Assembly: GCA_028820505.1 (NCBI GenBank) | Contig: JAPPIT010000141.1 | Span: 1 to 60,913, forward strand | DNA length: 60,913 bases | Direction of reading: 5' to 3' | Origin: Defluviicoccus sp. | GTDB taxonomy: Bacteria; Pseudomonadota; Alphaproteobacteria; MPNO01 | Shown: positions 3,695-35,718 of the stretch, in pieces | Layout: each line of letters starts with the position of its first letter | Numbering within the stretch: the stretch's first letter is position 1 | Program-made: the position numbers and the translations under genes | The notes under the pieces: generated by a model | Databases searched by the model: none | What the model was told of the DNA's origin: nothing | Seen by the model: only the letters and a program-made list of their open reading frames with translations

Positions 3695-4153
3695 ATGTCC
3701 AAGACCGAAGAATCGCTCGTCCCCTACCAGGACATGATGGAACGCGCGCTGCGCGGCGTGATGCGGGACGCGCTGGCGCTCGCCGGGGAGCAGGGTCTGC
3801 CGGGGAACCATCACTACTACATCTCTTTCCTTACGCAGCACGACGGTGTGACCGTCCCGGACAATCTCCGGGCGCGCTATCCCGACGAGATGACCATCGT
3901 TTTGCAGCACCAGTTCTGGGGGCTCGAGACCGAGGAGGACGGGTTTTCAGTCACCCTTTCCTTCGGCGGCAAGTCGGAGCGCCTCACCGTGCCGTTCGAG
4001 GCGGTGACCGCCTTCGTGGATCCGGCGGTCGATTTCGGGCTCCGGTTCGGGCCCGGGCCGGAGGAGGACACGGACGACGCGGCGGACGGCGCCGAGGACG
4101 CGGAAACCGACACCGCCAGCGTGGTTTCGCTCGACAGGTTCCGCAAGACTTGA
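3695..4153 (+). CDS. sspB: ClpXP adaptor SspB, alpha type
   Basis: 152 residues. It matches the alphaproteobacterial SspB family: an N-terminal segment [17 protein letters not shown], a beta-rich tag-binding core with [10 protein letters not shown] and HQFWGLE, an acidic linker (about 110-140), and a C-terminal [10 protein letters not shown] that resembles the ClpX-binding tail. It should dimerise, bind ssrA-tagged proteins and tether them to ClpXP. It starts about 30 bp after the tmRNA coding piece, which supports the assignment. The ATG at 3695 is preferred over an in-frame GTG one codon earlier. Possible read-through from ssrA is an inference. Confidence 0.9.
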
Positions 4154-33816: not shown

Positions 33817-34368
33817 TCACATCATGGGTTCCGGCAGATCTCCGTCGCCCAGCAGCGGGTACGAGCGCGCCTCGAACAGCTGATAATGCCACCATTCGTT
33901 GCGGTAGAAATCCCATCCCGCGGCGGTCATCAAACCCAACAGGACGAACCGGTTGCGCTGGGCTCTCGCGTCGATGTCGGTGCAGCCGTGGTGGGACAAG
34001 GGCGTGAAGGCGTCGAACGCCGTACCCATGGGGAGCGCCATACCGTCCCCGTCGAGCAGGGTCAGGTCGAGCGCGACACCGCGCGAGTGCGGCGATCCCC
34101 TGCGCGGGTCGGCGAGGAATTCCGGGTCGGGCGTGTGTTCCCAAAGGGCCTGTTGGGCTTCCCGGGGACGGAATGCGTCGAAGATACATATCCCGAGCCC
34201 GATACCGCGCGCGAGATCGACCGTCCGACGAAGTGCCTCCGCGGCATCGCTGTGCAGGTAGCACGCCGCCCGCGCGTAAACCGGCCGTCCGGTGAAGTTG
34301 CGGTCGGTCGCATAGGCGATGTCGAGCGTGACGTCGAACGCCTCCGGCGTGATCTCTACCAGGGTCAT
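33817..34368 (-). CDS. ddpX: D-alanyl-D-alanine dipeptidase (VanX/DdpX family)
   Basis: 183 residues. The zinc-peptidase signatures are intact: SPHSRGVALD (about 91-100, SxHxxGxAxD) and NEWWH (about 155-159) supplying the catalytic Glu and third zinc ligand; FDAFRP carries the conserved Arg. It hydrolyses D-Ala-D-Ala, either for recycling wall-derived dipeptide as in E. coli DdpX or altering precursor pools. No Van cluster is nearby, so a resistance role is unlikely. No signal peptide is seen. Confidence 0.88.
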   Translation of the reverse strand: MTLVEITPEAFDVTLDIAYATDRNFTGRPVYARAACYLHSDAAEALRRTVDLARGIGLGICIFDAFRPREAQQALWEHTPDPEFLADPRRGSPHSRGVALDLTLLDGDGMALPMGTAFDAFTPLSHHGCTDIDARAQRNRFVLLGLMTAAGWDFYRNEWWHYQLFEARSYPLLGDGDLPEPMM

Positions 34369-34737
34369 GCGGCTGGCCCTCGCACTTGGACGGCGCCACA
34401 ATAGGCGCTCATGTAGATGACTCGAAGGGCGGTCGGGCGGCGCGGCGGCGCTTCCGGGCAGGGGTGCTCTCTCCGGGGGTTGCGCAGGTGCTTCAAGGCA
34501 TCGTGTCCGACGGTCGTTCCGGTCATGGCGTGACCGGTGTTAACCACAGTTGACAGTGCGGCGACCCGGTCTCGCCCGCGGGACGGCCGCGCCGGCTTTC
34601 CGAACCGGTCCCGCAGCAATCCCCGCCAACGCGTTGACGCGGTGGAGAGATCCGCCGGTCCCGCACCCCCCGAGCGGCGCGGACGGGAGAGCCGCCGCGT
34701 CCCCGGGGGACGCGAAAAATAGTCCCATATCGGACCA

Positions 34738-34755
34738 ATGTTTCACGTGAAACAT
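34738..34755. other. parS site 1 (ParB binding)
   Basis: ATGTTTCACGTGAAACAT, a perfect 18-bp palindrome that contains the full 16-bp parS consensus TGTTTCACGTGAAACA. ParB should load and spread here to organise and partition the chromosome origin region. It lies between genes, unlike many parS sites, which fall within coding sequence. Confidence 0.92.
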
Positions 34756-34774
34756 AGGTCAACCTTGCTGACCT
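34756..34774. repeat. inverted repeat between the two parS sites
   Basis: AGGTCA (34756-34761), 7 nt, TGACCT (34769-34774). Its centre, 34765, is also the exact midpoint between the two parS sites, making the whole 34738-34792 segment one large near-palindrome. Confidence 0.75.
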
Positions 34775-34792
34775 TTGTTTCACGTGAAACAT
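34775..34792. other. parS site 2 (ParB binding)
   Basis: TTGTTTCACGTGAAACAT; the inner 16 bp (34776-34791) are a perfect parS consensus identical to site 1. Centre-to-centre distance to site 1 is 37 bp, about 3.5 helical turns. Confidence 0.92.
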
Positions 34793-35016
34793 CAGCAGCC
34801 CCCGCCCGTCGAGTTATCTGCATAAGTCCCCCCACAATAGGGGTGCCCCGGACCGGGCTCAATCGGACCTGCGCGGGGCGGCGCGGGGCGGCGCCCGACG
34901 GAACGCGGATTTCCGGCTATGCCCGTCGGGCGGGCGCGGTATCCTGCAGCCGCGTCGTTTACCACTCCTTTATCGCCGCGATGCGTGCCGCAAGTCGAAC
35001 CCGCGGATCGAGATCG

Positions 35017-35718
35017 ATGCCGCTCCTCCTCGCGATAGACTGCGCCGGCCCCGCCTGTTCGGTCGCGCTGGCCGCGGCGGGAAAAATCGAGGCTTCGCGG
35101 TCCGTCCGCCTCGCCCGGGGTCACGCGGAAGTCCTGATGGCGACGATCGCCGACGCGCTCGCCGAATCCGGCGCGGACTATCGCGACATAGGCTGCTTCG
35201 CCGTGACCGTCGGTCCCGGCTCGTTCACCGGGATCCGCACCGCGATCGCCGCCGCCCGGGGCCTGGCGCTCGCACTCTCGAGACCGCTGGTCGGCGTGAC
35301 GACGCTGGAGGCGGTGGCGCGCGGGGCCCGTCGCGCCGCCGCCCGTGGCGATGCCGACTGCCTTGTTGCCCTTGATACGCGCCGCGCCGACTTATACGCT
35401 CAACGCTTCGCGCCCGACGGCGCGGCGCGAACCCTGCCGGTTGCGATGATGCCAGAACGACTCGTCTCCACCGTCGGCGCGGGGCCTCTGCTTCTTGCGG
35501 GCGATGCGGCGGCGTCTCTCGTTCCCCTCCTCGACGCGCGCGGCATCGCGTTCGACGGTCCGGCGGGCGAAGGCTTTGCCGATGCCGCCGACGTCGCCGG
35601 AATCGCGGCCGAGCGGTGGAATTCGCCGAATGCCGGGGATCTTCCGCCGGTCAGGCCGCTCTATCTGCGGCCTCCCGACGCGACCAAGCCGCCGGCCGGC
35701 GGGCGGCTTCGTCCGTGA
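35017..35718 (+). CDS. tsaB: tRNA threonylcarbamoyladenosine biosynthesis protein TsaB
   Basis: 233 residues. The actin-like ATPase fold begins LLLAIDCAGPACSVALA, and the conserved FAVTVGPGSFTGIRTAIAAA (about 60-79) is the TsaB signature. With TsaD and TsaE it forms the complex that makes t6A37 in ANN-decoding tRNAs. The open frame extends back through the parS sites, but family homology begins at the ATG at 35017. It overlaps rimI by four bases (GTGA). Confidence 0.94.
   Translation: MPLLLAIDCAGPACSVALAAAGKIEASRSVRLARGHAEVLMATIADALAESGADYRDIGCFAVTVGPGSFTGIRTAIAAARGLALALSRPLVGVTTLEAVARGARRAAARGDADCLVALDTRRADLYAQRFAPDGAARTLPVAMMPERLVSTVGAGPLLLAGDAAASLVPLLDARGIAFDGPAGEGFADAADVAGIAAERWNSPNAGDLPPVRPLYLRPPDATKPPAGGRLRP

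Follow-up and report, generated by a model that had tools for sequence, protein, structure and literature searches.

The ddpX–tsaB locus and its paired parS sites

The stretch of DNA analysed here (the window; 60 913 nt) derives from a MAG of 5.49 Mb in 228 contigs, in a genus labelled Defluviicoccus. Within it, a gene for a ddpX-like D-Ala-D-Ala dipeptidase (33817–34401, minus strand; Pfam Peptidase_M15, with a likely ATG at 34368) and tsaB (35020–35718, plus strand; PF00814 domain) are divergent, with the element studied here located between two gene starts and not between gene ends. An earlier note on this DNA had claimed two perfect copies of TGTTTCACGTGAAACA with a centre-to-centre spacing of 37 bp, having a further inverted repeat centred at 34765 between them, all of which we could confirm. 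The two copies occupy 34739–34754 (parS2 in the orientation of the repeat family described below, near-invariant among the family copies) and 34776–34791 (parS1, beyond which end no family sequence continues). They are the only parS matches in the window at up to three mismatches, versus 0.04 expected, and their 37-bp pairing, corresponding to about 3.5 helical turns, is unique within the window. The central repeat, AGGTCA-N7-TGACCT (34756–34774), has conserved arms at 34756–34761 and 34769–34774 around a variable centre of 7 bp. It was also correct, as had been proposed, that the outer halves of the segment pair almost completely, since the 55-mer is a near-perfect palindrome; in folding calculations it forms one stem as single-stranded DNA (z = −12.3).

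Adjoining parS2 is a terminator-like hairpin with a T-run (34715–34737, minus strand) that is present in most family copies, followed by the palindrome GCGTCCCCGGGGGACGC (34697–34713), which is the second conserved hairpin of the family, and by a less conserved body (34525–34696, minus strand) showing approximately 80–91% identity among ten long copies. The proposal of a bidirectional terminator between ddpX and tsaB had to be abandoned, because such a function would require convergent gene ends, whereas both genes are here transcribed away from the element; the terminator-like hairpin beside parS2 is nevertheless carried by family copies. It can also be mentioned that the parS sequence opens a spurious reading frame (34738–35718, translated as MFHVKH...VSRET...) running into tsaB, which would lead to mis-annotation of the tsaB start.

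Insertion upstream of tsaB and a dispersed repeat family

The whole module lies within a 426-bp insertion (34406–34831) that is absent upstream of tsaB in relatives. This insertion is flanked on both sides by CCACAATAGG (34396–34405 and 34832–34841, plus strand), forming a target duplication of 10 bp, and has TIR-like ends, being CTCATGTAGATGACTCGAAGGGCGG at the left (34407–34432, plus strand) and CTTATGCAGATAACTCGACGGGCGG, read on the minus strand, at the right (34803–34829). The ends constitute 25-bp inverted repeats with 21 of 25 positions matching, and similar ends occur elsewhere. In four relatives (G001, G002, G003 and G004) the region upstream of tsaB was found without the insert, with G003 and G004 having a single CCACCATAGG where the window genome has CCACAATAGG twice, while in a fifth relative this region was disrupted. 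Based upon the empty site, the target duplication and the inverted-repeat ends, we conclude that the window copy is a recent, transposition-like insertion. Among the loci examined it was the only copy with the TIR-like motif on both sides, and most family copies had neither TIR nor clear target duplication, although the insert-end motif abuts parS also at three further loci of the window genome (contigs C46, C131 and C167) and at one G003 locus.

Two side observations were made here. Upstream of tsaB in the genome G005 (L097), an apparent transposase gene is found in place of ddpX. Furthermore, the end of a multi-copy repeat, similar to GGGGCTTATATAGATAACTTGACGGGC, abuts parS at several loci where the contigs often end soon after, as seen at 34406–34432 and 34803–34829 of the window, at 4070–4100 of L023, at 6310–6340 of L038 and around position 3998 of L249; repeat ends of this type may prefer the neighbourhood of parS as insertion target.

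The window arrangement recurs exactly at 17 further positions of its genome, which contains 52 perfect parS sites and 18 parS pairs at exactly 37 bp; the spacers of all 18 conform, with some variation, to TAGGTCAACANTGCTGACCTT as consensus or to the complement thereof. The genome thereby holds at least 18 near-identical and dispersed 'double parS' modules, and its parS sites are spread over about 36 loci on at least 27 contigs, not forming one compact cluster. Every one of the 18 genomic matches to GGTCA-N7-TGACCW adjoins a parS, no family body without parS was found in the genome, with each other body copy lying at a parS locus, and all parS groups were intergenic using a crude gene call. Neither the dispersed family nor the mobile-element-like insertion around the window copy had been noticed in the earlier note. 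Four congeners, with contigs labelled Defluviicoccus sp., all have 37-bp pairs (2, 12, 10 and 3, respectively) and carry 22–35 perfect parS each. The five congeneric genomes together thus span 22–52 perfect sites, versus 0–4 in 22 other genomes of the order, none of which contains a perfect 37-bp pair.

The usual order of the module is unique DNA, often with a stop codon, followed by CTAA, parS1, AAGGTCAGCATTGTTGACCTA, parS2, TTGTCCCGATATGGGACTATTTTT and the palindrome GTCCCCGGGGGAC, where TTGTCCCGATATGGGACTATTTTT is the terminator-like hairpin; in ten copies a body of about 170 bp extends beyond the GTCCCCGGGGGAC palindrome. A second subfamily has the degenerate site TCCATCGYRTGAAGAA replacing parS2 in the same 37-bp register. 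Copies were gathered by this register and retain it, with the hairpin lying at variable distance. The number of units also differs between genomes, with C13:43287 of the window genome (G000) having one parS against two at the corresponding locus of G003, and contig C63 of G004 likewise one against two in its G003 counterpart. Some single-parS loci have thus apparently arisen by loss of one 37-bp unit. The par locus, in turn, carries three parS, with the order on contig C112 being parS triplet, mnmG, rsmG with a parS at its start, parA and parB. The encoded ParB has the domains ParB_N, HTH_ParB and ParB_C, and the ParA and ParB genes are canonical as judged from sequence, for ParB by its domain content.

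With regards to chromosomal position, the genes of the window are syntenic with a region about 50–130 kb from the par locus of the relative G143, and the window copy is therefore probably origin-proximal. Of the other parS loci, most are unmapped in the G143 frame, and those placed there are between 0 and about 570 kb away from the par locus. As a rough gauge of origin distance, 11 of 168 parS-locus genes fall within 200 kb of that par locus, versus 6 of 125 control genes (at 50% identity).

Conservation of the module and its occurrence in other taxa

Pairwise identity, averaged over 42 copies of the pair type (five genomes), reached 0.986 and 0.985 in the two parS sites, 0.83 and 0.92 in the arms, 0.65 in the centre and approximately 0.4–0.7 in the body. 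For orthologous copies we used 17 comparisons across three species, some of which share one copy of the window genome. The parS sites differed here at 2 of 544 positions, the repeat arms at 17 of 238 and the outer CTAA/TTAG at 19 of 136, compared with 41 of 119 for the 7-bp centre (Fisher p about 3e-31 for parS and about 4e-10 for arms, each versus the centre). The scarcity of differences relative to the centre shows parS and arms to be under selection, and gene conversion between copies could account for part of the conservation.

The arms are evidently constrained as sequence, in the manner of a protein site, and not as a stem, because arm changes remain uncompensated: alignment pair 21/33 was mismatched in 22 of 64 copies, with double-sided re-pairing in none. 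The cruciform suggested in the earlier note is disfavoured by these uncompensated substitutions, together with the finding that in the second subfamily only one parS is still perfect and its partner site has decayed, and selection for a cruciform or hairpin was rejected on the same grounds.

Comparison of relatives showed that the 37-bp spacing and the arms are both kept in the five congeneric genomes and in another family, so that the outcome which the earlier note had named as refuting its idea, relatives with randomly spaced parS and lacking the central repeat, was not the one observed. In two genomes of this other alphaproteobacterial family, a composite of the same design occupies the interval from mnmG to rsmG, immediately ahead of parA-parB, and one of the two has no other parS-like site within 1.2 Mb around its composite. 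Searching 386 genomes of the class, we encountered parS with the repeat directly after it in one other genus only, and neither parS of the same-family genome G001 has the composite; an origin ancestral to all Alphaproteobacteria is consequently not supported. Its presence in the other family may reflect parallel origin, transfer or retention. A further module, on contig C34 of G347 (L281) and binned with another alphaproteobacterial family, was set aside as a probable mis-binning, since one of the neighbouring genes is similar to a gene from a parS locus of Defluviicoccus.

The composite of two parS with a central repeat at fixed spacing is real, but the spacing is not unusual in itself: 37-bp parS pairs with unrelated spacers exist also in Streptomyces, Clostridia, Bradyrhizobium and others, and such pairs in many phyla rule out that this distance is unique. 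In a sample of loci from unrelated phyla (L101–L180), biased in that it was selected for one 37-bp pair, tandem parS neighbours lay mainly 35–38, 41 and 45–47 bp apart, with modes separated by about one helical turn.

Possible functions of the parS modules

The architecture of the module, its recurrence, the selection upon parS and arms, the insertion at tsaB and the canonical ParA and ParB genes can all be read from the genomes compared. We believe that these features are probably best explained by a composite ParB-loading centromere module, in the order of parS, a site for a dimeric protein and parS, that has been amplified genome-wide in the genus. What we infer from them is that ParB binds at these modules, that a partner occupies the arms and that many loci take part in segregation or in organising the chromosome. 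Most likely, ParB-CTP clamps would load at both parS sites of each module, on opposite faces of the helix, and the arms would be the target either of a dimeric protein that works alongside ParB or of ParB itself, through a second contact. Module and body would have spread by duplication, with the ddpX/tsaB copy arriving through the 426-bp insertion; most copies lie between genes, often directly after a stop codon and with the terminator-like hairpin beside the second parS, and copies gain or lose 37-bp units of parS plus repeat.

Should the modules instead be a selfish or passenger repeat, of MITE or REP type, that carries parS-like palindromes by chance, binding of ParB would bring the host no benefit, or the repeat would hijack ParB to maintain itself. 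This is the rival that fares best, though we find it unlikely. The window copy is indeed a mobile insertion with a target duplication, TIR-like ends abut parS at those three further loci and the number of pairs varies from 2 to 18 among species. As in REP/BIME and MITE elements, the units are short, non-coding, palindromic and intergenic, often following stop codons, and the window copy also resembles them in its TIR-like ends and target duplication. However, unlike such elements the family is conserved mainly in parS and arms and not at its termini, and most copies lack TIR or clear target duplication. Many loci are, moreover, orthologous in two or three species with near-unchanged parS next to diverging positions, and a composite stands at the par locus of a genome without other parS in 1.2 Mb. 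A mobile unit with sites for a resident ParB has a precedent in SGI1, which carries plasmid parS mimics for its own partition (PMC10954446), whereas the Defluviicoccus units are non-coding repeats, present in many copies, whose parS is of the chromosomal type.

It is still less probable that the modules are ordinary tandem parS pairs with the inverted repeat as inherited filler devoid of function. The existence of 37-bp pairs with unrelated spacers in many phyla would agree with that explanation, but not the conservation of the arms relative to the 7-bp centre in orthologous copies, the restriction of the repeat pattern to parS loci or the recurrence of similar arms in another family. Finally, that the 55-bp near-palindrome should act structurally, as a cruciform, 3′-UTR hairpin or terminator, seems very improbable in spite of its strong predicted stem, of the frequent position of family copies behind stop codons and of their terminator-like hairpin, given the uncompensated arm changes, the subfamily with only one perfect parS, the divergent genes at ddpX/tsaB and the loci where one 37-bp unit has apparently been lost and just one parS is left.

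Sites of the parS type are normally few and near the replication origin. The Defluviicoccus sites have the identical 16-bp palindrome of chromosomal ParABS systems and a canonical parA-parB next to mnmG-rsmG, but differ in that the genomes have 22–52 perfect sites, many of them within a fixed composite module. Close parS spacing, including 37 bp, is shared with the tandem arrays of Myxococcus xanthus, Streptomyces and Clostridia, but the M. xanthus array is compact, its 22 parS forming a single cluster of 3 kb (PMC3899335), and the spacers found elsewhere have no relation to this one, while the Defluviicoccus pairs are dispersed and have a conserved inverted repeat. Known parS sets reach 20–23 sites and lie near the origin (reviewed in PMC7333895), and in Caulobacter extra parS outside the permissive zone of about 500 kb or the native cluster is harmful and lowers fitness (PMC5815017), which together make the genus unusual. 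Judging from that harm in Caulobacter, a ParB system would have to be tolerant to cope with dozens of dispersed sites. A comparative genomics paper on Defluviicoccus does not mention parS or ParB (PMC9041414).

Returning to the composite ParB-loading module, its stronger form, that the genus has made an interspersed repeat of a composite centromere, relies on dozens of loading points for ParB/SMC scattered along its chromosome and has a second protein that reads the repeat between the parS sites, is put forward tentatively, as we hold it to be possible but somewhat doubtful. Having as many as 52 perfect parS in conserved, dispersed modules, these bacteria provide a natural test of the constraints upon centromere number and position, and the conserved repeat held between paired parS suggests that ParB loading involves a partner, or a second contact, not recognised so far.
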